A stretch of 64,000 bases of DNA from Bacteroidota bacterium (GTDB lineage Bacteria; Bacteroidota; Bacteroidia; M30B66), in NCBI GenBank assembly GCA_027490225.1, contig JAIXYK010000026.1, positions 1 through 64,000 on the forward strand, written 5' to 3'. The translations under genes were made by a program, and so were the position numbers. Of the stretch, positions 51,588 to 63,283 are shown piece after piece (position 1 is the first letter of the stretch; the number at the start of each line of letters is the position of its first letter). The notes beneath the pieces were generated by a model that saw only the letters and a program-made list of their open reading frames with translations, made no database searches and was not told the DNA's origin.

Positions 51588-51857
51588 ATGTACTACAATT
51601 CGAAAGTTACGCTTAGCTTTAACGCACAAGTTATAGAAAAGGCAAAGGCTTATGCAGAACAAAACGGCATCAGTCTTAGTAGGCTTACAGAAATTTTATT
51701 GCGCAGACTTACCTCAAATCCAAGCTACAACATTGAAGATTTTCCTGTTTCAGATTGGGTAAACCATGTTTCTGAAGGTAAAGCAGAATACGTAGCAACT
51801 CCGCCAGATTCTAAAAAAAGAAGAGATGTAATGAGGTCTAAAAAGGCTTCAAAATAA
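51588..51857 (+). CDS. DUF6364 family antitoxin (ribbon-helix-helix-like)
   Basis: An 89-residue small basic protein. The N-terminus has NSKVTLSFNAQVIEKAKAYAEQNGISLSRLTEILLRRL, seen in parts as KVTLSFN and GISLSRLTEILLR, which is a ribbon-helix-helix pattern typical of DUF6364 antitoxins. The C-terminal tail (SDWVNHVSEGKAEYVATPP) should wrap the toxin. The gene is directly upstream of a PIN-domain gene, one base apart, the standard type II toxin-antitoxin order. The antitoxin probably represses its own promoter. Confidence 0.85.
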   Translation: MYYNSKVTLSFNAQVIEKAKAYAEQNGISLSRLTEILLRRLTSNPSYNIEDFPVSDWVNHVSEGKAEYVATPPDSKKRRDVMRSKKASK

Positions 51858-51858
51858 G

Positions 51859-52296
51859 ATGCGCATTTTTGTAGATGCCAATATCTTGATTGCGGTAATA
51901 AATAAAGAGTTGCCTTATTATGATGCTTGTGCAAGGGTGTTGAGTCTTAAAAATTTTCCAAAAATTGAGATTTTTTCTTCGGCTTTAAGTTTTAGCATCA
52001 CAGCTTATTTTGCAGAAAAAAAACATGGTGAGAAGGAAACGCGCAAACGAATGGTGTTATTGATGGAAAACATAAAAATCTGCAATTGCGGACAAACTGA
52101 AGTACAACAAGCACTTGAAAACAAGAAAATTGGAGATTTGGAAGATGGCGTTCAGTATTACGCTGCCAAGAATTCTTCGTGTGAATATATTGTAACCTAT
52201 AATCAAAAAGATTTCTTCTTTTCTCAACTCGAAGTATTGCTACCTGAAGAAATGCTAGGAAAATATTTACATCTTATAAAAAATAAGAGAAATTAA
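51859..52296 (+). CDS. PIN-domain toxin (VapC-like RNase)
   Basis: A 145-residue PIN-domain protein. The opening MRIFVDANILIAVINKE carries the first acidic residue (Asp6), a Glu lies in the middle helices, DLEDGVQYYAAKN gives further acidic residues, and IVTYNQKDFFFS provides the last Asp with Thr-Tyr-Asn in place of the usual Thr-Arg-Asn. PIN toxins cleave tRNA or rRNA to arrest growth when the antitoxin is lost. It is one base after the DUF6364 antitoxin. The residue set is near complete, so activity is likely but not certain. Confidence 0.85.
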   Translation: MRIFVDANILIAVINKELPYYDACARVLSLKNFPKIEIFSSALSFSITAYFAEKKHGEKETRKRMVLLMENIKICNCGQTEVQQALENKKIGDLEDGVQYYAAKNSSCEYIVTYNQKDFFFSQLEVLLPEEMLGKYLHLIKNKRN

Positions 52297-52315: not shown

Positions 52316-52323
52316 TTGTTTTG
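52316..52323 (+). promoter_or_regulatory. Probable -7 box before the nuclease gene
   Basis: TTGTTTTG is a one-mismatch form of TAnnTTTG, 25 bases before the GTG at 52348. It covers an in-frame TTG at 52321, which argues against that codon as the start. Confidence 0.4.
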
Positions 52324-52347
52324 CACCTTTACAAAAATTATTATGCT

Positions 52348-53601
52348 GTGAAATCAATCATATTTCTTCTTCTAACATCATTCTTTCTACAAGTAAATGC
52401 ACAAGTATCGCTTACCGAGCAGATAAACGCGAAACAAAAAGAAGTAGAGCAATTAAAAGATAATGAAAAGCGGTTAAAAGTTGAATTGGAACAACTAAAA
52501 CTCGCTCGGATTAGAGTTGATTTAGAAAAAGAAGTTTTGCCAGAAATTCTTGTAGGTGAAGAAGTGGTAATGCATGCTGCAATGGCATTGGTTTACAGCG
52601 AAAAAGACGAGCAAGCTAAATGGGTTGCACATATCATTACTCCAGATGTGTCTTCAGGTTTAATAGGTAGAAGTAATGATTTCAGACCTGATAGTTTGAT
52701 TAAAACCGGTTCTGCAACTGAAGAAGATTACTTTCTAAAAGAATTGCTAGCAGATGGAACATACAAATACGACGGATTTGGATTTGATCGCGGACATTTG
52801 GCACCATCGGCAGATTTTAGATGGTCGGCAAAGGCATTGTCTGAGAGTTTTTATTATTCTAACATGTCACCTCAACGGCCTGAATTTAACAGAGTTAGCT
52901 GGGCAAAATTAGAAGACCTATTTAGATCGTACGTTGATAAAAACAAAACAGAATTGTATGTGGTAACTGGGCCATTATTAAGAGATGGTTTGCCTAAAGT
53001 AGAAAGGGCTAAAAACAAACCAACAATTCCTGTCTATTATTTTAAAGTTGTAATAGACAAAGCAAATAAACGAGGAATTGGTTTTTTAATGCCAAATAAA
53101 TTATGTGAAGGACCTACAGAAAGTTATTCTGTTTCGATTGACAGTATTGAAACATTAACAGGAATCAATTTTTTTGTTGCACTCCCCGACGAACTTGAAA
53201 ATACAATTGAGCAACAAAAAGATGTAAAACCTTGGATGTCACCTAAGGAGCAAAATGATGTGAAACCATTAGACCCTACTGAACTTCCTAAAAAACATTT
53301 TAATACAGTTCAAGCCAAACTTTACAAAGGATTAAATGAAACTATAACTGTTTGCGGAACGGTGGTAAGTACGAAGCTTTCATCCAAAGGAAATATATTC
53401 CTAAACTTAGATAAAGGATTTCCTAATCAGATTTTTACTGTAACGATATTCAAAGATAAAGTCATTAATTTTTCTTATTTACCAAATGAAGAATTATTCG
53501 GTAAAACAATTTGTATAGAAGGCAAAGTTGCTGATTTTAATGGAACACCATCAATGGTTGTGGACGATGAACATGCAATTAAATTTTTTGAAAATGAATA
53601 G
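52348..53601 (+). CDS. Secreted DNA/RNA non-specific endonuclease with C-terminal OB-like domain
   Basis: A 417-residue protein. The signal peptide (about 1-19, KSIIFLLLTSFFLQVNAQ) is followed by a coiled coil (about 25-60, QKEVEQLKDNEKRLKVELEQL). The nuclease domain carries the DRGH-type catalytic motif FDRGHLAPSADFRWS with the catalytic His and the Asn region SNMSPQRPEFNRVSW. From about residue 330 a beta-rich OB-fold-like domain (ETITVCGTVVSTKLSSKGN) ends the protein. It should be exported and degrade nucleic acids outside the cell or in the periplasm. The start is GTG. It overlaps tspO by 8 bp. Confidence 0.88.
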   Translation: MKSIIFLLLTSFFLQVNAQVSLTEQINAKQKEVEQLKDNEKRLKVELEQLKLARIRVDLEKEVLPEILVGEEVVMHAAMALVYSEKDEQAKWVAHIITPDVSSGLIGRSNDFRPDSLIKTGSATEEDYFLKELLADGTYKYDGFGFDRGHLAPSADFRWSAKALSESFYYSNMSPQRPEFNRVSWAKLEDLFRSYVDKNKTELYVVTGPLLRDGLPKVERAKNKPTIPVYYFKVVIDKANKRGIGFLMPNKLCEGPTESYSVSIDSIETLTGINFFVALPDELENTIEQQKDVKPWMSPKEQNDVKPLDPTELPKKHFNTVQAKLYKGLNETITVCGTVVSTKLSSKGNIFLNLDKGFPNQIFTVTIFKDKVINFSYLPNEELFGKTICIEGKVADFNGTPSMVVDDEHAIKFFENE

Positions 53602-54067
53602 ATTTTTGAAGATTATAATTTGCCTTTTACTGCCATTAATAATTGGAGGATTCTCTGGATATTTCACTGTTGATGGCGTGAGAGAATGGTATTTTACAAT
53701 TAATAAACCTTCATTTAATCCTCCAAATGGAATTTTCGGACCAGTATGGACGTTTCTTTATATTTTAATGGGTATTTCTTTATTTAGAATAAGTGATTTA
53801 AAAGCCAGTAAAGAAAGAAATTATGCACTGTTGCTTTTTGGTATTCAACTTATTCTGAATTTTTTTTGGAGCTTGATATTTTTTAAATTTCATTTTATTG
53901 GATTAGCTCTTTTAGATATTTTAATTCTATGGATTTTAATATTTATGATGATTTTAAAATTCAAGAAATTAGATACTACCGCAAGCTTCCTTCAAATACC
54001 TTATTTAATCTGGGTAAGTTTTGCAAGTATTCTCAATATTTCAATCCTCTATTTAAATTCAAATTAA
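53594..54067 (+). CDS. tspO: TspO/MBR family tryptophan-rich sensory protein
   Basis: A 157-residue integral membrane protein with five helices. The family signature is visible in YFTINKPSFNPPNGIFGPVW and FLYILMGISLF, and the later WSLIFFKFHFIGLALLDI is typical. TspO proteins bind porphyrins and have been linked to tetrapyrrole transport and stress responses. I use the ATG at 53594, which overlaps the nuclease stop by 8 bp; a longer frame upstream is inside the nuclease gene. It is followed with a 1-base overlap (TAATG) by the Gre-like gene. Confidence 0.9.
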   Translation: MNRFLKIIICLLLPLIIGGFSGYFTVDGVREWYFTINKPSFNPPNGIFGPVWTFLYILMGISLFRISDLKASKERNYALLLFGIQLILNFFWSLIFFKFHFIGLALLDILILWILIFMMILKFKKLDTTASFLQIPYLIWVSFASILNISILYLNSN

Positions 54068-54513
54068 TGAATAAAGTTGAGATACATGCGAAATGCTTTG
54101 ATTTAATTGATTTAAAATTAAATGAGTTACAAAAAGAAATTTCTGAATTGAATAGTTCTGTACAAAATGAAACAAAAAGCAGTGCCGGAGATAAACATGA
54201 GACTTCAAGGGCAATGATTCAACAGGAAATAGATTTTGCAAATCAACGGCTAAAAGAACTGCAAATAGCAAAAAGTGATTTAAATAAAATTAATCCTTTA
54301 CTTGTAAATAAATCTATAAATACAGGAAGTTTAATCGAAACAAATATTGGTAATATTTATTTTGCACTTGCATTGGGGAAAATAAAATATCAAAATTTAG
54401 ACTTTAACGTACTCAGCATTCAATCGCCAATAGGCTTATTATTAAAAGAGAAAAATAAAGGAGATAAAATAATTTTAAACGGAAAAGAAGTAATTATTCA
54501 TTCAATTTATTAA
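54067..54513 (+). CDS. Gre-like transcription factor (coiled coil plus GreA C-terminal domain)
   Basis: A 148-residue protein. An N-terminal coiled coil (LKLNELQKEISELNSSVQNE, then QQEIDFANQRLKELQIAKSD) is joined to a C-terminal domain with SPIGLLLKEKNKGDKIILNG, the GreA/GreB C-terminal signature. In Bacteroidetes, similar proteins are often mislabelled 3-oxoacyl-ACP synthase, but nothing here resembles a condensing enzyme. The family architecture suggests binding to RNA polymerase near its secondary channel; this is inference. Its start overlaps the tspO stop by 1 base. Its stop overlaps the converging gene's by 4 bp. Confidence 0.8.
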   Translation: MNKVEIHAKCFDLIDLKLNELQKEISELNSSVQNETKSSAGDKHETSRAMIQQEIDFANQRLKELQIAKSDLNKINPLLVNKSINTGSLIETNIGNIYFALALGKIKYQNLDFNVLSIQSPIGLLLKEKNKGDKIILNGKEVIIHSIY

Positions 54514-56825
54514 TAATCTTTATTCTTAATACATACTGGATTTCCTGGAGAATTATAAGTACAAAAATACCCACATTGCGCAATAACCTCTTTGTAATAT
54601 TTTGAATCTTTAAAATCAACATTCATCATTTTAAAGTAAACACCTGCCTGAAAATCTCCACTTCCTTCTCCCCAGGAATCTTCCAACCAAGCATTGTGTT
54701 CGCATTTGGCAAGCATCCAAGCGCATTTTGCTCTGAATTCTTTATTTGTTGAAAGCGACATAGCCAATAAATAATTCTTTTCGGCTTCTTTCATACTATA
54801 ATATACACCTACTTCCTGATTTTTTTTGAATGAATAACCATTAAATCTATTTGATTCTTGATAATTCCAATTTATAGCAGTGGCAGAAAACACCCTTGCA
54901 TTTCCATACCAAGTCATATTATACAAACCGTTTGCATATAAAAAATAATTATTAGCCCGTTCCTGATTATCTTTTTCCGATGCAGCTTTTTTAGAAAGCT
55001 CTATCATTTTTTCTACAAATTTCAGCTTAGTATACACTACTTTCTGAGGCATTGCATGGTCGCAATCATGACAATCTTGAATTCTTATATTGAAAGGATT
55101 TCCCAAAAGCTCTCCAGCACCCGAAGCTTCATTCTTTCTAAAAATTTCAGCAGCTCCAACAAAATCATAATTCATTGCCTTTTGCACTGCTTGAATTTCA
55201 TACAATTCTGATATTTTCAAAAAGTATTTAGAAATAATATAGATGTCCCATTCCGTTTTATTAGGTTGATTCATAAAATCAATCATTTTCTGGATATTAT
55301 CTTCATCTTTATAAAATTCATCTGCATTGGTTTTACACAATTCAGCCCTAATTGGATCATTCTTAGAATACAGCATTGACAAATGTGTTTTTATCCATCT
55401 AATCGTATTTTCAGGCCTAAGATTTAGAGAGTTGTAAGAAGTAATTCTGGTAATTAAATCTAATAAATATGACTCATCCGCTTTTTGAATTTCTGTCAAT
55501 TTACTAGCAAATACAATTGATTTAATTAAATTTAATTGTGCTGAACATATTTCACTTTTTCCCGAAAATGTTTGTCCTGTTTTTATCCACTCTTCACTTC
55601 TTTTATTGTTTCCTATCAACCAGTTTAAATAAGCAGCTGATGCATACCAAACTCCATTTTCTTTAAAGTGAAGTGTTGTATTTTCTTCAACAAAATTTAC
55701 AAGTTCCTTCACATTTGCACTATCAATAGATTTCCATGAATAAAATGGATTTCCAATATAAGATGAATAATCTCTTTCGTCTTCAGAAGACCTATCATAC
55801 ATTTCATCCTGACCTTCATAAACAGGATTATGGAGTAATTTATTTTCTGCAATATTGATTGAACGTACCAATAATAATTCAATAAACTCAGATGTAGGAT
55901 TTAATTGAACTATCTCTCTCATTGCTCTTAATGGATCAAGATAAACTCCAAATAAATGCCAGAGCGATTCTTTATCACGAATTGTTTTAGCATTTAAAAT
56001 TGTTAATTTCCATTCTTCTTCAGATTGTGGATGAAAGCTTTCGAAAGCTGAAACGCGTTGTTGCTTGCATTCATCATAAATTTTTGCATAAATTAAATTG
56101 GATGCTGCATATTGTTTCAATTTATATAAACAGGCGGCTTTATATCCTAATATCCTGTAATACATTGAACCTATAGTTGCATTTCCCTTGAAATCTTTAT
56201 CAAAAAAATCTATTCCTTTTTGAAATTGACCTAATAAATAATATGCCCTAATTTCCTGAAATATCCACCTAATTTTTATAAAATCATTTTTCTCATTTTT
56301 TCGAAAGGCAACAATTTTCTCTACATTCTTCAATAATTCTGTCCGATCAAAACTAGTAGGAGTCCAATCATCGTAACTAACTCTGGTGTAGGTTTCTAAT
56401 TCTTTAGCATATTCCAAATATGCAAGTCCGGCATTGATTTTTTCTGTTGTTAAACTATTATTAAACGCGTTTTTTTCCGTTTGTTTTTTAAATTTAAACA
56501 AAGAAGCTTTAAACTGTTTTAAGTCTGAATTGTAAAAGCTGTAAACTAAGTAAAAAATAGAATCAGCATTATTTTCATTTCCAAAATATTCTTTCCATTC
56601 ATCAATACTAATTTGAAATCCGTAAGGTTCGCCAACTTCAGCATAATAATCATTATAAGAAAGAAAAAAAGGAGTGAATTTTTCTTGCTGAATAATTTCA
56701 GGGGCGAAAATACTCATATCTCGAATATCGTACATTCCAGAATCGGCGCACCCATTTACCCTTTGCAGTGAAAGAGGACTTAACAAAATACTAATTAAAA
56801 GTACTAACGATATTTTTAATTTCAT
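54510..56825 (-). CDS. Large secreted protein of unknown function (TPR-like helical)
   Basis: A 771-residue protein with a signal peptide (about 1-25, ending RVNGC or so). The mature start CADSGMYDIRDMSIFAPEIIQ is followed by a long helical region with aromatic/alanine spacing like TPR/SEL1 solenoids (YRILGYKAACLYKLKQYAASNLIYAKIYDE). The C-terminal third has cysteines (CHDCD, AKCEHNA, CGYFCTY). I cannot name the family. The 5' end overlaps the lipoprotein gene's 3' end by 35 bp, so the two are translated together. Its stop overlaps the Gre-like stop. Confidence 0.7.
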   Translation of the reverse strand: MKLKISLVLLISILLSPLSLQRVNGCADSGMYDIRDMSIFAPEIIQQEKFTPFFLSYNDYYAEVGEPYGFQISIDEWKEYFGNENNADSIFYLVYSFYNSDLKQFKASLFKFKKQTEKNAFNNSLTTEKINAGLAYLEYAKELETYTRVSYDDWTPTSFDRTELLKNVEKIVAFRKNEKNDFIKIRWIFQEIRAYYLLGQFQKGIDFFDKDFKGNATIGSMYYRILGYKAACLYKLKQYAASNLIYAKIYDECKQQRVSAFESFHPQSEEEWKLTILNAKTIRDKESLWHLFGVYLDPLRAMREIVQLNPTSEFIELLLVRSINIAENKLLHNPVYEGQDEMYDRSSEDERDYSSYIGNPFYSWKSIDSANVKELVNFVEENTTLHFKENGVWYASAAYLNWLIGNNKRSEEWIKTGQTFSGKSEICSAQLNLIKSIVFASKLTEIQKADESYLLDLITRITSYNSLNLRPENTIRWIKTHLSMLYSKNDPIRAELCKTNADEFYKDEDNIQKMIDFMNQPNKTEWDIYIISKYFLKISELYEIQAVQKAMNYDFVGAAEIFRKNEASGAGELLGNPFNIRIQDCHDCDHAMPQKVVYTKLKFVEKMIELSKKAASEKDNQERANNYFLYANGLYNMTWYGNARVFSATAINWNYQESNRFNGYSFKKNQEVGVYYSMKEAEKNYLLAMSLSTNKEFRAKCAWMLAKCEHNAWLEDSWGEGSGDFQAGVYFKMMNVDFKDSKYYKEVIAQCGYFCTYNSPGNPVCIKNKDY

Positions 56826-57900
56826 TGGGTGGGAAAATTGATATAATGGTCGAATCTAAATGATAAAATGCAACAGTAAAGCTGGCTGAATTTAAGTTTT
56901 CACTCAGTTGTAAAGCTGCTTTTTTGCAAACTTCGGGAGATATTTCTTCTACTCTTACTCTGTCTCCTTTATCAAAATAAACTCCTCTAAATAAATTTGA
57001 TTGCTCAGCAATATAAATATTATCGTTGATCAATTTAAAGTTTGGATTTAATTTGATTTCTTTAATTGTTAGTTGATTAATGATTTTAAAAACACTTCCA
57101 GATTTAAAGCATATTCCCCAAGAAAATAGAGGTAAAGCAACATCTAAGCGCAGCGGATATTGTTTAACGTAGGAAACATATTTTCCAGCATCATTCTCAT
57201 TATAAATAGAGTTTTTACAATTATAATCTGTTAATTTTCCCATATTATAAAACATCAGCATTCCTTTGTCTACAGGGGGAATTCCTGTAATATCAAAGTA
57301 CTTTACTTGGTGTAGCCTGATTGTAGCTGAAATTAAATTTTTGTTTTCTGAAAGCCTTATAATTTCTAAAAGGAACTGAAAATATCTATCCTTCGTTTTT
57401 TCTGTCCAATCGCAATCAAACTGTAATTCTTGAAAATCAAATTTTCTATTGCTAAAAATACCATTGATTAATGTATAGCAGTTTTTAGCTAATGAATTAA
57501 TTGAGTCAGTTTTGATATTCACAAAAACTTGATTCTCAATAAAAACGACAGGAATGACATCTGTTTTTAATGTATCAAGGGTATCCAGTAATAACTTAGC
57601 ATTTGGTATAGGCTTTTTATTTTCATTGTCCCATTTCACATCAAAACACCTGATATAAAGAAGAGACGATTTGCATTCTTCAAGGTAATTAAATTCTCTT
57701 TTGCCTAGACTTAATTCTGATTTCCAATGGTAAAAAGCTGTTGTGATTTCTTTCTTCTCATTTTTACCACATCCAAAAATCAAAATTGTCAGTAGCAAAA
57801 AACAATAGAATGCCTGTAGTTTAATAGCTTGTATTAAATGGTAGGAATTCAAATGCTGTAGATGTAAAAATAAGGTGTAAAATAACAACATTTTGAGCAC
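56791..57900 (-). CDS. Putative lipoprotein with DUF3142-like TIM-barrel pattern
   Basis: A protein of up to 369 residues with a lipobox (ILIFGC, Cys about 44) after a long hydrophobic lead. The mature part contains FQELQFDCDWTEKTKDRYFQ, then ATIRLHQVKYFDITGIPPVD and MLMFYNMG, a pattern reminiscent of DUF3142-type TIM-barrel proteins (QxDxDxT ... LS.TIRLHQ). The function is unknown to me. The true start is uncertain: the first in-frame codons are GTG at 57900 and ATG at 57891, and a start nearer the lipobox is possible. It overlaps the downstream TPR-like gene by 35 bp. The pair may act together. Confidence 0.65.
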   Translation of the reverse strand: MLKMLLFYTLFLHLQHLNSYHLIQAIKLQAFYCFLLLTILIFGCGKNEKKEITTAFYHWKSELSLGKREFNYLEECKSSLLYIRCFDVKWDNENKKPIPNAKLLLDTLDTLKTDVIPVVFIENQVFVNIKTDSINSLAKNCYTLINGIFSNRKFDFQELQFDCDWTEKTKDRYFQFLLEIIRLSENKNLISATIRLHQVKYFDITGIPPVDKGMLMFYNMGKLTDYNCKNSIYNENDAGKYVSYVKQYPLRLDVALPLFSWGICFKSGSVFKIINQLTIKEIKLNPNFKLINDNIYIAEQSNLFRGVYFDKGDRVRVEEISPEVCKKAALQLSENLNSASFTVAFYHLDSTIISIFPPNEIKNIVSTFN

Positions 57901-57924
57901 ATGAAGTGTTTCGTGTTACCTTTG
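57892..57924 (+). promoter_or_regulatory. Promoter of the Nfu-type gene
   Basis: TTTG (57892-57895), a 21-base spacer and TACCTTTG (57917-57924) match the Bacteroidetes consensus. The ATG at 57942 is 17 bases downstream. Confidence 0.75.
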
Positions 57925-57941
57925 CAAAAATTAAATTAAGT

Positions 57942-58535
57942 ATGTCTATTACACCAACAATTGTTTACGCTGAAGCAACACCCAATCCAAATACAATGAA
58001 ATTTGTTGCAAACCGATTAATAATTGAGCCCAATAAAATTGTTGAATATTTAAATGAAAGCGAGTGCGAAGGCGCTCCTTTGGCAAAAGAGTTATTTAAA
58101 GGAGGTTATGTTAAATCGCTATTTTTTAATAATAACTTTATTTCTATCACTAAAACAGATGTGCAGGAATGGAATAGATTGGTTAGTCCAGTAAGAGAAT
58201 TTTTACAAGATTATTTCACGAAAGCTCTCCCGGTAATTGAAGTTTATCCAGAACCAAAAGAAAAAAGTCAAGAAAGTAATACTGTTTTGATACCAACTGA
58301 AGGGAGTGTAGAAGAAGCAATTATTAACATTTTAGAAGAATACATAAAACCAGCTGTGGAGCAAGATGGCGGTGCTATAAGTTTTAGGTCCTTCAATGAA
58401 GGAATTGTTACAGTTGCTTTGCAGGGTTCATGTTCTGGCTGTCCTTCATCGAAAGTTACGTTGAAATCTGGAATTGAGAACTTGCTCAAAAGAATGCTTC
58501 CGGAAGTGAAAGAAGTAGTTGCAGAAGAGCTTTAA
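57942..58535 (+). CDS. NifU/Nfu family iron-sulfur carrier
   Basis: A 197-residue cytoplasmic iron-sulfur cluster carrier. The N-terminal scaffold-like domain starts IVYAEATPNPNTMKFVANR, the form found in eukaryotic and Bacteroidetes Nfu proteins. The C-terminal NifU domain (about 120-195) carries the CxxC pair in QGSCSGCPSSKVTL that holds the [4Fe-4S] cluster. I start the gene at the ATG at 57942, because the longer frame begins upstream of the promoter's -7 box. It stands divergent from the unknown lipoprotein and 107 bp before the DUF177 gene. Confidence 0.93.
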   Translation: MSITPTIVYAEATPNPNTMKFVANRLIIEPNKIVEYLNESECEGAPLAKELFKGGYVKSLFFNNNFISITKTDVQEWNRLVSPVREFLQDYFTKALPVIEVYPEPKEKSQESNTVLIPTEGSVEEAIINILEEYIKPAVEQDGGAISFRSFNEGIVTVALQGSCSGCPSSKVTLKSGIENLLKRMLPEVKEVVAEEL

Positions 58536-58588
58536 CGTCTGACTTCCTAAGAGTTTTCATACAAAAGAATGTTTATTTAAAATTCTTG

Positions 58589-58618
58589 TTTGATGAATTC
58601 GAAAAAAATGTATCTTTG
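58589..58618 (+). promoter_or_regulatory. Promoter of the DUF177-rpmF-plsX-fabH-acc run
   Basis: TTTG (58589-58592), an 18-base spacer and TATCTTTG (58611-58618) match the Bacteroidetes consensus. The ATG at 58643 is 24 bases downstream. This is among the best promoters in the window. Confidence 0.8.
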
Positions 58619-58642
58619 CGTCCCTTTTTCTAAAGAGCACTG

Positions 58643-59185
58643 ATGTTGGACTATTTCGAACAATTTGTAATTCAATTTTCTGGCTTATCAACAGGGAATC
58701 ATGAATATGAATTTCATATTAATGATGCGTTCTTTAAAAACTTAGAAAATGGCTTGATTCAAAAAGGTGATGTTGAAGTAAAAGTTTTGCTTGACAAGAC
58801 TCCAACTTTAATGACATTTGACATTGAATTTAAAGGAAAGGTTGAAGTGGAATGTGACAGATGCGCGTCTTTTTCTGACATGCCTGTTGAAGGAGAGCAC
58901 AGGTTATTGGTTCAACTAGGCGATGCTTACGTTGAAGAAGATGACATGATTATTATTCCAAGAACAGATTATCAATTTAATCTTTTTCAACATATATACG
59001 ATTGCATAGCATTAGCATTGCCATTGAGGATAGTTCCTTGTGAGATAACTTTAGATAAAAGCAATTGCGACCAAACTGTTATTTCAAGGCTAGAAGCAAT
59101 AAGTCAAGAACAAATAATTATTGCTCAAGAAACGGTTGACCCTCGTTGGGACAAACTACGTAACTTGGGCAAAGACAATATATAA
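58643..59185 (+). CDS. DUF177 (YceD-like) protein
   Basis: A 180-residue protein of the DUF177/YceD family, with the conserved VEVECDRCASF cysteine pair (about 70-80) and the C-terminal CNCDQT-type pattern (DKSNCDQTVI). In most bacteria this gene lies beside rpmF, as here, and its product is needed for proper large ribosomal RNA processing in some species. The precise role is not settled. It is the first gene of the run, 23 bp before rpmF. Confidence 0.9.
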   Translation: MLDYFEQFVIQFSGLSTGNHEYEFHINDAFFKNLENGLIQKGDVEVKVLLDKTPTLMTFDIEFKGKVEVECDRCASFSDMPVEGEHRLLVQLGDAYVEEDDMIIIPRTDYQFNLFQHIYDCIALALPLRIVPCEITLDKSNCDQTVISRLEAISQEQIIIAQETVDPRWDKLRNLGKDNI

Positions 59186-59208
59186 ACCGAATACAAAAAC
59201 GATAAACT

Positions 59209-59400
59209 ATGGCACATCCGAAACGGAAAATTTCGAAGACACGCCGCGATAAACGCAGAACTCATTATAAAGCTGAAGCTCCAACTTTAGCTAAGTGTTC
59301 AACAACAGGTACTATACACTTGTTTCACAGAGCTTATTATGTAGAGGGAGCCCTTTACTACAAAGGCAAAGTGGTAGTTCCGGCAAAAGTTACTGCCTAA
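59209..59400 (+). CDS. rpmF: 50S ribosomal protein L32
   Basis: A 63-residue large-subunit ribosomal protein. The N-terminus [20 protein letters not shown] is the family hallmark. Unlike the zinc-ribbon form, this copy has a single Cys ([17 protein letters not shown]), so it is the zinc-independent type common in Bacteroidetes. It is 23 bp after DUF177 and 38 bp before plsX. Confidence 0.96.
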
Positions 59401-59438
59401 TTGTACAGCGAAATAACTGCTCAAATAGCGGAATTTCG

Positions 59439-60383
59439 ATGCACATAGGAATAGATATTATGGGGGGAGATTATGCTCCTCTCGCTACTGTCAACGGAGC
59501 AATTCTGGCGGCAAACGTACTACCTACGTCTTGCCGTTTGGTGCTTATTGGAGACGAAAATAAAATAAAATCAATCTTAAAAGATCAAAACTACGATACT
59601 TCTAAATTTGATTTCGTTCACAGTGATTCTGTAATAGAAATGGGTGAACATCCAGCAAGAGCTTTTACTCAAAAACAAAACTCCAGTATTTCCATTGGTT
59701 TTAATCTTTTAAAAGAAGGCAAAATAGATGCTTTTGTTGGAGCTGGGAATACAGGAGCTATGCTAGTTGGTGCTGTTTTAAGTGTAAAACCTATTGAAGG
59801 AATACAAAGACCTTGTATTATGTCGTTGATTCCAAAAGAGAATGGTGGATTCGGAATTCTATTAGATGTTGGTTCCAATGCTGATTGCAAACCAGAAACT
59901 TTATTACAATTTGCATTGCTAGGTTCAACATATGCTTCGAGTGTGCTCAATATAAACTTGCCTAAAATAGGATTGATTAATATTGGAGAAGAGCCTGAAA
60001 AAGGGAATGCCCTTGCTCAGGCCGCATATCTGTTACTAAAAGAAAATACTTCCTTAAATTTCATTGGAAATATTGAAGGTCGTGATTTGTTTAATGATAA
60101 GGCAGATGTAATGGTTTGCGATGGTTTTACTGGAAATGTGGTTTTAAAATTAGCTGAAGCATTCTATAGAATTATTCAAAAAAGAGATATTCAAGATGAA
60201 TATCTGAATCGCTTCAACTACGAAGACTATGGTGGAACACCAATTTTAGGTATAAATTCAACAGTAATTGTTGGACATGGAATTTCAAACGCAAAAGCAA
60301 TCAAAAATATGATTACACTTGCGCAAGATGTAGTGCAAGCACAATTAAAAGAAAAAATAAAATTAGTACTTCAACATGAGTAA
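59439..60383 (+). CDS. plsX: Phosphate acyltransferase PlsX
   Basis: A 314-residue cytoplasmic/peripheral enzyme that makes acyl-phosphate from acyl-ACP at the start of phospholipid synthesis. Family blocks are [66 protein letters not shown] and [16 protein letters not shown] use the ATG at 59439; a longer frame upstream overlaps rpmF in another frame. The fabH gene overlaps its 3' end by 8 bp. Confidence 0.96.
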
Positions 60384-61371
60384 AATTCACGCAGCAATCA
60401 CTGGTGTTAACGGATATGTTCCAGAATATATCTTGAGTAATAAAGAACTTGAAACAACAGTAGAAACAACAGATGAGTGGATTACAAGTAGAACTGGAAT
60501 TTCTGAAAGACGAATTTTAAAAGGCGAAAACAAAGGTATGTCCGATATGGCAGCAGAAGCTGTTAGAGGATTACTAGAAAAAACAGGCACAAAAGCTGAA
60601 GAAATTGATTTGCTAATTTGCACAACCATTACACCCGATATGGTTTTTCCAGCAACAGCAAATATTATTTGTGATAAAATTGGTGCAAAAAACGCTTGGG
60701 GATTTGATTTAGGCGCTGCTTGTAGCGGATTTTTATACGGATTAACTACTGGCTCAAAGTTTATCGAGACAGGTGCTCATAAAAAAGTTGTGGTTGTTGG
60801 TGGAGATAAAATGTCTTCAATTATTGATTACACCGACCGAACTACTTGCGTAATTTTTGGAGATGGTTGTGCTGCAGTGCTATTGGAACCAACAACTGAA
60901 GATTTAGGTGTAATGGACACTATTTTGAGGTCAGACGGGGCGGGAAGACACCATTTACATCAAAAAGCGGGAGGTTCTTTGAAGCCAGCGAGCCATGCTA
61001 CTGTCGACGCTCGCGAACATTACGTATATCAGGAAGGACAGCAAGTGTATAAATTTGCTGTTACAAATATGGCTGAAGTTGCCGCTGAAATTTTAGAAAA
61101 AAACAATTTGGTATCAGATGATATTAATTGGTTAGTACCACATCAAGCCAACCTGCGAATAATTGATGCAACTGCGAATAGAATTGGAATTGGAAGAGAA
61201 AAAGTAATGATCAATATTCAACGTTACGGTAATACTACAAATGGTACTATTCCTCTTTGTTTATGGGAATGGGAGAAACAGCTTAAAAAAGGAGATAATC
61301 TCATTTTAGCTGCATTTGGAGGAGGATTTACCTGGGGGGCAATTTGGCTCAAATGGGCCTACAATTCATAA
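60376..61371 (+). CDS. fabH: 3-oxoacyl-ACP synthase III (FabH)
   Basis: A 331-residue enzyme that starts fatty-acid synthesis from acetyl-CoA and malonyl-ACP. The catalytic Cys116 is in [13 protein letters not shown], the His in VPHQANLRI and the Asn in [11 protein letters not shown]. Its start overlaps the plsX stop by 8 bp. accB follows after 51 bp, so plsX-fabH-accB-accC may form one transcription unit. Confidence 0.97.
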
Positions 61372-61422
61372 GTAAGACAAAATCATATTTTCATATATTT
61401 ACCCACTTAAAAAAAATATTTT

Positions 61423-61905
61423 ATGGATATTCGTGAAATCCAAGATCTCATTAAATTCGTTGCAAAATCAGGTGTTAGTGAAGTTAGTCTTGAAACAGAT
61501 GACTTCAAATTAACTGTTAAAACTGAGTCTAATTCGAAGCCTAAAGAGAACATTGTTTATCAAGTTGCAGCTGAACCTGCACCCATTGTTATACCAACAG
61601 TTCCAGCAGCTCCTGCGCCTGTTTCTGCAGCGCCCGCAGCACCAGCGCCTGTAGCAGCGAGCAATACAGTTACAATTAAATCACCTATGATTGGTACGTT
61701 CTACCGCTCTTCAGGACCAGATAAACCTTTATTTGTAAATGTTGGCGATGAAGTAAGCCCAGGAAAAGTTATATGCATCATTGAAGCAATGAAATTGTTT
61801 AATGAAATTGAATGTGATGTGAAAGGCAAAATCGTTAAGGTTTTGGTTGATGACGCCACACCAGTTGAATATGATCAACCTTTATTCTTGGTTGAACCTG
61901 CATAA
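61423..61905 (+). CDS. accB: Biotin carboxyl carrier protein of acetyl-CoA carboxylase
   Basis: A 160-residue carrier. The C-terminal biotinyl domain holds the biotinylated Lys124 in IIEAMKLFNEIE. An N-terminal helical region is joined by an Ala/Pro-rich linker (about 49-80, APAPVSAAPAAPAPV) that lets the arm swing between carboxylase sites. It lies 31 bp before accC, with which it works. Confidence 0.96.
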   Translation: MDIREIQDLIKFVAKSGVSEVSLETDDFKLTVKTESNSKPKENIVYQVAAEPAPIVIPTVPAAPAPVSAAPAAPAPVAASNTVTIKSPMIGTFYRSSGPDKPLFVNVGDEVSPGKVICIIEAMKLFNEIECDVKGKIVKVLVDDATPVEYDQPLFLVEPA

Positions 61906-61936
61906 TTATTTGTTCCACGTTTAAAACTAATAATAC

Positions 61937-63283
61937 GTGTTTAAAAAAATATTAATTGCCAATCGTGGCGAAATAGCTTTGCGTGTCATAAGAACAGCGC
62001 ATGAAATGGGCATTAAAACAGTGGCTGTTTATTCAACTGCTGATAAAGAAAGTTTGCATGTTAGATTTGCAAATGAAGCAGTTTGTATAGGACCACCGCC
62101 AAGCAAAGATTCCTATTTGAATATTGCTAACATTATTTCTGCTGCTGAAATAACAAATGCAGACGCCATTCATCCTGGTTATGGCTTTCTTTCAGAAAAT
62201 TCGAAATTCTCGAAAATCTGTAAAGAACACGGAATAAAATTTATTGGTGCAACTCCCGATCAAATTGACCGAATGGGTGACAAATCAATGGCCAAAGAAA
62301 CCATGAGAAATGCTGGCGTACCAACAATTCCTGGTTCTGAAGGCTTATTAGAAAGTGTTACTGAAGCTAAAAAAATCGCTAAAAAAATAAAATATCCTGT
62401 AATACTAAAAGCAACTGCAGGAGGTGGCGGAAGAGGAATGCGGATTGTATGGAAAGAAGAAGAAATTGAAAATGCCTGGGATTCTGCACGACAAGAGGCT
62501 GGTGCAGCATTCGGAAACGATGGAATGTACCTTGAAAAGTACATCGAAGAACCAAGACACATTGAAATTCAAGTTATTGGCGACCAATATGGAAAAGTAG
62601 TACATTTAAGTGAGAGAGATTGCTCTATTCAAAGACGTCATCAAAAGTTAATGGAAGAAACACCTTCTCCATTTATGACGCAAGAACTACGAGATGAAAT
62701 GGGTGAAGCGGCAATTAAAGCAGCTATGGCAGTAAACTATGAAGGTTGCGGTACTGTTGAATTTTTGGTAGACAAGCACCGCAATTTTTACTTCATGGAA
62801 ATGAATACACGTATTCAAGTGGAGCACCCAATTACAGAAGAAGTTATTGACTATGATTTAATTCGCGAACAAATAAAAGTAGCTGCGGGAATTCCTATTT
62901 CAGGAAAAAATTACTATCCCCAAATGCACGCAATTGAATGCAGAATTAATGCAGAAGATATCTACAATAATTTCCGTCCATCACCAGGAACAATCACTAC
63001 TTTTCACGCACCAGGCGGGCACGGGGTAAGATTAGATACGCATGCATATGCAGGTTATACTATTCCTCCGAATTATGATTCAATGATTGCTAAATTGATA
63101 ACAATTGCCCAAAGCAGAGAAGAAGCAATTGCTAAAATGAAAAGAGCATTGGCGGAATTTGTAATTGATGGAATTAAAACAACCATTCCTTTCCACAGAA
63201 AACTCATGGAAGACCCTGATTTTAATGCTGGAAATTATACTACAAAATTCCTCGAAACTTTCGATTATAGCTCAAAAGATTAA
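61937..63283 (+). CDS. accC: Biotin carboxylase subunit of acetyl-CoA carboxylase
   Basis: A 448-residue ATP-grasp enzyme that carboxylates biotin on AccB. Family blocks are [18 protein letters not shown], the ATP-binding glycine loop [14 protein letters not shown] (about 154-167), [14 protein letters not shown], and [20 protein letters not shown] with the catalytic Glu/Arg. The start codon is GTG. A strong terminator lies 6 bp after the stop and closes the run. Confidence 0.97.

Follow-up and report, generated by a model that had tools for sequence, protein, structure and literature searches.

In a genome of the Bacteroidota (GenBank assembly GCA_027490225.1), the first 64,000 nucleotides of contig JAIXYK010000026.1, here called the window, carry two overlapping genes, P2 and P1, that form a real unit: their pairing is near-obligate, with exceptions. 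P2 (56791-57900, minus strand) encodes a 369-residue lipoprotein, related to the DUF3142 family, with a predicted TIM barrel like that of glycoside hydrolase family 18 (GH18). P1 (54510-56825, minus strand, start codon ATG) encodes an exported 771-residue protein which, judging from its open reading frame (ORF) and predicted fold, is a helical solenoid of the tetratricopeptide repeat (TPR) kind. We see about an even chance that the two make up an undescribed two-component system of the cell envelope, in which a GH18-like lipoprotein would bind or cleave glycans and P1 would act as its scaffold. The original prediction, made from the DNA letters and ORF translations, had described P2 as a DUF3142-like lipoprotein with a TIM-barrel-like pattern and P1 as a helical solenoid with a cysteine-rich end, both exported and probably forming one unit. 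These descriptions held; its statement that P2 has no recognised catalytic site was too pessimistic.

The pairing of the two genes was surveyed at several scales. A P2-based scan of genome contigs confirmed 135 relatives, of which the best 80 loci were kept. A profile search found P1 in 73 of these loci, as the next gene in 68; one of the seven remaining loci lies on a contig that stops just after P2, and the other six genomes all carry P1 elsewhere. Among 198 genomes of the phylum, the P2 profile matches 19 and the P1 profile 20, and all 19 genomes with P2 also hold P1, in 17 cases adjacent to it; the additional P1-profile genome (G234) has a weak match (E 6.9e-4) that was set aside. The hypergeometric chance of such 19/19 co-occurrence is 1.4e-25, a value that ignores relatedness among the genomes. 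Within 60 relatives of the window's genome, P2 occurs in 16, P1 in 14 and both in 13, and the unshared matches in G001 and G009 lie at contig starts. The unit is thus borne out more strongly than had been claimed, gene order is conserved, and separate occurrence in most genomes was not seen among those examined.

The 3' end of P2 and the 5' end of P1 overlap by 35 nucleotides (56791-56825, minus strand), the length given in the original prediction and confirmed by the ORF coordinates. Because an overlap recurs in 64 of 73 measured homologous pairs, it is not a matter of chance; it spans at most 60 nucleotides in 56 of the 64, and the commonest lengths among the 73 pairs, all within the 80 loci, are 44 and 38 nucleotides (start codons were set by a simple signal-peptide rule). 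The start of P2 itself is uncertain, as either the GTG at 57900 or an in-frame ATG at 57891 may be used. When 740 ORFs from the 80 loci were clustered by BLAST, P2 was recovered in 79 loci and P1 in 72; besides these two, none of the gene families nearby is widely conserved. The next commonest neighbours, RecQ (12/80) and sugar-phosphate isomerase (11/80), both named by eye, were considered as clues to function and set aside, as they look like lineage neighbours.

Homologues from the 80 loci and from the 60 relatives were filtered for redundancy (full-length P2 from 94 to 79, P1 on the + strand from 75 to 64), which gave alignments of 80 rows for P2 and 65 rows for P1, the window's own proteins included. 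Identities range from 27 to 41% to P2 and from 16 to 40% to P1. Over 57 loci, mean pairwise identity is 27% for P1 versus 36% for P2; this faster divergence of P1 may be interpreted as fitting a scaffold that faces variable partners. The mirror-tree correlation between P1 and P2 (r 0.82, 57 loci) was not counted as support, since common ancestry and linkage would be expected to produce it.

Degenerate and multiplied copies of the genes were also observed. Genome G002 contains a P2-P1 pair broken by many stop codons (contig 4, 34003-37225, minus strand), and its other, intact-looking P2 adjoins an Nfu-like gene, as in the window. At one locus (L041:5253-9993, plus strand) the first P1 is followed by another that is divided between two ORFs; in G053, besides the P1 adjacent to P2, a tandem of two lies on contig 43, and G210 has three P1 genes in a row on contig 11, which is not the contig of its P2. 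Cultivable Bacteroidota such as Niastella and Spirosoma are among the carriers of the pair. A search of plasmids with P2 gave no match.

P2 is predicted with confidence to adopt a GH18-type TIM barrel. The AlphaFold2 model (mean predicted local distance difference test score, pLDDT, 94.8) is a TIM barrel in which a beta-rich insert follows strand 7, and Foldseek matches it to 81 PDB chains at E<=0.001; all of the 50 matches listed are chitinases, chitinase-like proteins or the spore cortex-lytic enzyme SleL, with SleL first (E 2.2e-12). In VIA-align against the PDB the best Z is 19.6, with 280-286 residues aligned over model range 50-369. Single-sequence scans of P1 and P2 found no Pfam family at E<=1, and PDB sequence-profile searches with either protein gave no significant match. 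NCBIfam scans returned a sub-threshold match for P1 alone; assignment of P1 to a redox family, on a single match with E 0.042, far below the family cut-off, was disregarded. Profile searches thus linked neither protein strongly to a family whose function is known, and it is by structure that P2 matches the GH18 fold.

The conserved residues of P2 form a pattern of the kind expected of a pocket. Trp59, Phe86, Asp87, Asp162, Asp164, Trp165, Phe174, Thr193, Arg195, Leu196, Gln198, Gly206, Pro208, Pro209, Tyr218, Tyr241 and Trp261 are among those invariant in all 80 sequences, and Gln160 (78), Asn219 (78), His197 (77), Asp253 (77), Asp313 (75) and Glu318 (79) are nearly so. In particular, Asp162-Cys163-Asp164 (57409-57417, minus strand) ends strand 4, at the place of the GH18 catalytic strand, and the motif TIRLHQ (57307-57324, minus strand) forms strand 5; this motif, QFDCDWT and PPVD, the three named in the original prediction, are all present and conserved across the alignment. 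Among sequences only 27-41% identical to P2, such conservation would count in favour of a glycan-binding or -cleaving protein. The lipobox cysteine, Cys44 in FGC (57769-57771, minus strand), is kept in 74 of 80 sequences and followed by few acidic residues (mean 0.65 in the next five positions).

Chitinases, SleL and chi-lectins share with P2 the barrel with a beta-rich insert after strand 7, the strand-4 Asp and the strand-6 Tyr. Unlike them, P2 lacks the catalytic Glu of the DxxDxDxE motif, has Asn in place of the strand-6 Asp of the aligned chitinases, and carries an invariant Arg and Gln on strand 5. Two registers were obtained with hhalign. In the first, seen in the displayed alignments of long-form DUF3142 (see below) with GH18 sets and in that of P2 with pooled GH18, the second Asp of DxD falls on the catalytic Glu; in the second, that of P2 with the chitinase-type GH18 set alone, Thr166 takes this position. 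The residue at the acid/base position is Asp164 (80/80) or Thr/Ser166 (77/80), according to register, and Glu in neither. The QFDCDWT strand lies at the place of the DxxDxDxE strand, and Asp-x-Asp probably replaces the Asp-x-Glu of GH18, if the first register is the right one. The window's genome also holds a conventional GH18 protein with DGIDIDIE (contig 62, 112982-113734).

The lack of Glu in both registers is what would be expected if P2 were a chi-lectin-like pseudoenzyme, that is, a GH18 barrel without catalysis that acts as a glycan-binding or structural subunit (sensor or receptor) on the P1 scaffold; GH18 does include non-catalytic lectins, according to an excerpt of the source (PMC3662789). 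We regard this as possible though rather unlikely, as the set formed by Asp87, Asp162, Asp164, Arg195 and Gln198 (80/80) with Asp253, Asp313 and Glu318 (75-79/80) is, in our judgement, more than sugar stacking usually needs. The SleL chains that head the Foldseek matches, and the appearance of SleL among three sub-significant PDB profile matches (E 0.21), raise another alternative, namely that the pair remodels or senses peptidoglycan in the manner of SleL, the solenoid having a regulatory role similar to that of LpoA. The E of 0.21 is not evidence by itself, the pair has no widely recurring neighbour family, and the patchy distribution (19/198 genomes) argues against a core wall function; this explanation appears improbable.

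P1 is modelled by AlphaFold2 as an all-helical solenoid (mean pLDDT 86.1). It contains no strand of at least three residues and hence no C-terminal outer-membrane beta-barrel of the PgaA/PelB type. P1 itself matches no TPR model; among the 65 aligned sequences, TPR_14 matches 11 and other TPR models match 2-9, with a best E of 6.3e-8, which together with the helical model points to a TPR-type protein. An apparent signal peptide ends at Cys26, the expected mature N-terminus (56748-56750, minus strand; 65/65), so that P1, like P2 with its lipoprotein-type signal, is probably exported. The cysteine-rich end noted in the original prediction is represented by the motif Cys585-His-Asp-Cys588 (55062-55073, minus strand), whose two cysteines are each found in 46 of 65 sequences and are present or absent together (phi 1.0, 65 rows), by Cys708 (64/65) and by Cys751 (54573-54575, minus strand; 65/65).

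The structures matched by P1 in the PDB are diverse helical-repeat proteins. The top VIA-align row is chain I of 8gl8, the extended translocon of the type IX secretion system (T9SS), an entry that contains the TPR protein SprE, and it invites the explanation that P1 belongs, like SprE, to a secretion or motility apparatus with P2 as an accessory. The match (Z 12.7 with a root-mean-square deviation of 16.2 over 372 residues) lies within the range for which the tool warns of helical repeats. Moreover, DUF3142 pairs occur in Pseudomonadota, whereas T9SS is a system of the Bacteroidota. A role in secretion or motility seems very unlikely.

A parallel to P2 and P1 is found outside the phylum. Comparison by hhalign of the 79 P2 homologues with eight long-form DUF3142 sequences gave a probability of 93.1 (E 3.2e-7) over 227 collinear columns, from the lipobox to strand 7, and the P2 profile against short-form DUF3142 gave 49%; the controls P1-P2, P1-DUF3142 and P2-solenoid gave 0.1-0.4%. 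Weak matches to the DUF3142 model (PF11340) at E<=0.1 were found in 7 of the 80 aligned sequences (best E 5.4e-4), and nine P2-bearing genomes score at most 16.4 bits against the Pfam gathering cut-off of 30 bits. These profile comparisons support homology and DUF3142 as the nearest named family of P2, in line with the original prediction, although P2 is not a member by the Pfam cut-off. The kinship of P2 with GH18 rests on structure, on weak Pfam matches to GH18 (PF00704; 2 of 80 aligned sequences, best E 3.5e-4, none for P2 itself) and on DUF3142 as a link (59-69% against pooled GH18 by hhalign), because direct hhalign comparison of P2 with GH18 is not significant.

As PF11340 had no match in the 198 genomes of the window's phylum, where the search controls likewise had none, DUF3142 sequences were taken from Pseudomonadota. 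In 25 of 398 genomes of that phylum there is a PF11340 match at E<=0.001, which in 23 also exceeds the cut-off; among the 25, eight have a long form, 13 a short form and four others. Of these 25 genomes, 21 also hold an exported solenoid of about 720 residues. The short-form solenoid, the family that neighbours DUF3142 there, has strong matches in exactly the 13 short-form genomes of the 398 (open frames of 709-746 residues in 12 and of 840 in one). All eight long-form genomes hold the long-form solenoid, as a neighbour of DUF3142 in six, on another contig in G411 and about 14 kb away in G299. Three weak short-form matches (E 2e-4 to 1e-3), one of which, in G616, is a genuine long-form solenoid, and eight genomes with weak matches to solenoid profile A3 (E 3.6e-5 to 7e-4) were set aside. 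The two types of solenoid are related to each other (hmmsearch 1.7e-15; hhalign 50%, or 85% with more sequences). In the six long-form solenoids aligned, the C-terminal end reads by eye as a hydrophobic stretch and then Arg/Lys, a pattern that suggests a protein anchored there, its solenoid lying in the periplasm.

Like P2, DUF3142 proteins are exported and of barrel type, with the collinear motifs YxW, DxD, LSxT, vD..vL and ALP, and are paired with a TPR-like protein, likewise exported, whose mature N-terminus has a Cys at or close to it and whose gene is usually the next or previous one. In contrast, the strand-5 Arg and the strand-6 Tyr/Asn of P2 are not common to both in the profile alignment, and the short-form pairs have the reverse gene order. 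A common origin of the partners is not claimed, since P1 and the Pseudomonadota solenoids have no significant similarity: the best short-form match pairs the C-terminal ends with E 0.06-0.07, as against 0.41-0.76 for reversed controls, and none is significant. The pattern F..LK..Y..T, which P1 and the solenoids have in common, is common in TPR-like repeats.

Further DUF3142 loci were noted. One (L158:1841-5377, minus strand) has a divergent DUF3142-like protein of 268 residues; the 910-residue ORF next to it seems to carry a signal peptide, gives no match to the solenoid profiles and may encode a different partner. A long-form solenoid relative at L225:6025-8418 (minus strand; hmmsearch 4.4e-119) has no DUF3142 within 15 kb and no PF11340 match in its genome. 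DUF3142 occurs on named plasmids of Xanthomonas, Burkholderia and Novosphingobium (six plasmid records), and a phage search with it gave no match. On the Xanthomonas sacchari plasmid, genes for a sigma factor, a FecR-domain protein, a TonB-dependent receptor and a TPR protein are followed by DUF3142 and a 721-residue protein; in Burkholderia pyrrocinia, a 'hypothetical protein' precedes DUF3142. In the literature searched, DUF3142 appears in one paper, as a row of a halotolerance table, beside a 'hypothetical protein' cluster of equal score.

According to two reports, the TPR region of PgaA binds to PgaB and increases its activity both as a hydrolase and as a deacetylase (PMC9384988), and the TPRs of PelB act on or modulate PelA (PMC12022489). 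As TPR regions can bind and tune sugar-acting enzymes of the envelope, P2 and P1 may by analogy be read as an enzyme or binder with its scaffold. Like PgaB-PgaA and PelA-PelB, the pair would combine a sugar-acting protein with a TPR superhelix in the envelope; unlike them, P2 has no deacetylase domain, P1 has no porin domain, and the two form a stand-alone two-gene unit with no synthase gene recurring alongside in the 80 loci. In the mechanism that we propose, the P2 barrel would have a groove, with invariant Trp, Tyr, Asp and Arg along its walls, in which a glycan chain is bound and probably cut. Asp164 with Asp162 would take the place of the Asp-x-Glu acid/base pair of GH18, and Arg195 may read a negative group of a linear sugar polymer, a ligand suggested by the fold, the aromatic and acidic invariants and the kinship with SleL and chitinases. 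P1, as a superhelical scaffold, would keep hold of P2 or of the polymer and modulate what P2 does, and the conserved overlap would couple translation of P1 to that of P2. The site of action would be the periplasm of the Gram-negative envelope, because few acidic residues follow the lipid Cys of P2 and the long-form solenoids have hydrophobic/basic tails. The genes and their overlap, the export signals read from sequence, the predicted folds, the invariant residues, the near-obligate pairing in the phylum and the parallel in Pseudomonadota are observations; the complex between the two proteins, the coupling of their translation, the binding and cutting of a carbohydrate, the register that puts Asp for Glu and the location in the periplasm are inferences from them.

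Several observations weigh against a glycan-acting pair of this kind. The GH18 catalytic Glu is absent from P2; in the second register Thr/Ser stands where the acid should be, which would leave P2 inactive, and hhalign of P2 against GH18 profiles built from the sequences gathered here reaches 0.1-3.8%. Some genomes have P2 without a P1 partner: G024 (29% identity) and G040 (25%, partial) have P2 matches and no P1, and G002, one of the 13 relatives with both, has its intact-looking P2 (contig 67, locus L003) without a P1 neighbour, its only P1 matches being fragments with many stops beside the second, broken P2. In the 80 loci no family of polysaccharide genes, be it synthase, porin or another, is a recurrent neighbour of the pair. 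In the Pseudomonadota, four of the 25 DUF3142 genomes (G309, G317, G427 and G579, the last two below the PF11340 cut-off) have no strong solenoid match, G616 has a long-form solenoid without a DUF3142 match, and P1 against the Pseudomonadota solenoids gives 0.6-2.4% by hhalign.

A bolder version of the proposal can be held only tentatively. P2 would then represent a new glycoside hydrolase family that uses Asp-x-Asp, chemically like GH84, instead of Asp-x-Glu, and with DUF3142 it would define an undescribed two-protein envelope system that crosses phyla, one whose lipoprotein cuts a sugar polymer with negative charges or acetyl groups under the control of a solenoid dedicated to it.

Other genes flank the pair in the window. 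On the plus strand, 51588-52296 encodes an 89-residue DUF6364 protein (E 2e-15) and a 145-residue PIN-domain protein (E 3.1e-9), laid out like a type II toxin-antitoxin pair. A DNA/RNA non-specific endonuclease (52321-53601, plus strand; E 8.2e-49), which seems to have a signal peptide and may end in an OB fold (tRNA_anti-codon, E 0.0039, short of the cut-off), is followed by a TspO/MBR gene (53528-54067, plus strand; E 1.4e-48). Downstream of the latter, an ORF at 53929-54513 (plus strand), with a weak match to the GreA/GreB C-terminal domain (E 0.057) that may be due to chance, stops where P1 stops on the opposite strand. Diverging from the pair, a fatty-acid gene block (57906-63283, plus strand) begins with an Nfu-type Fe-S scaffold and YceD, followed by PlsX, FabH, AccB and AccC, the last four read by eye.

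No description of a P2-P1 system was found in the literature searched; the pair is shared by distant genomes and, judging by these searches, unstudied. What had been two families of unassigned function becomes a single system open to experiment. A physical complex is predicted by the co-occurrence of the two genes, which persists when they are not neighbours, and the invariant residues of the P2 pocket are a small set of candidates for mutation. DUF3142 can be approached in the same way. Should P2 prove active, it would reveal how a barrel of the GH18 type can do without the glutamate.

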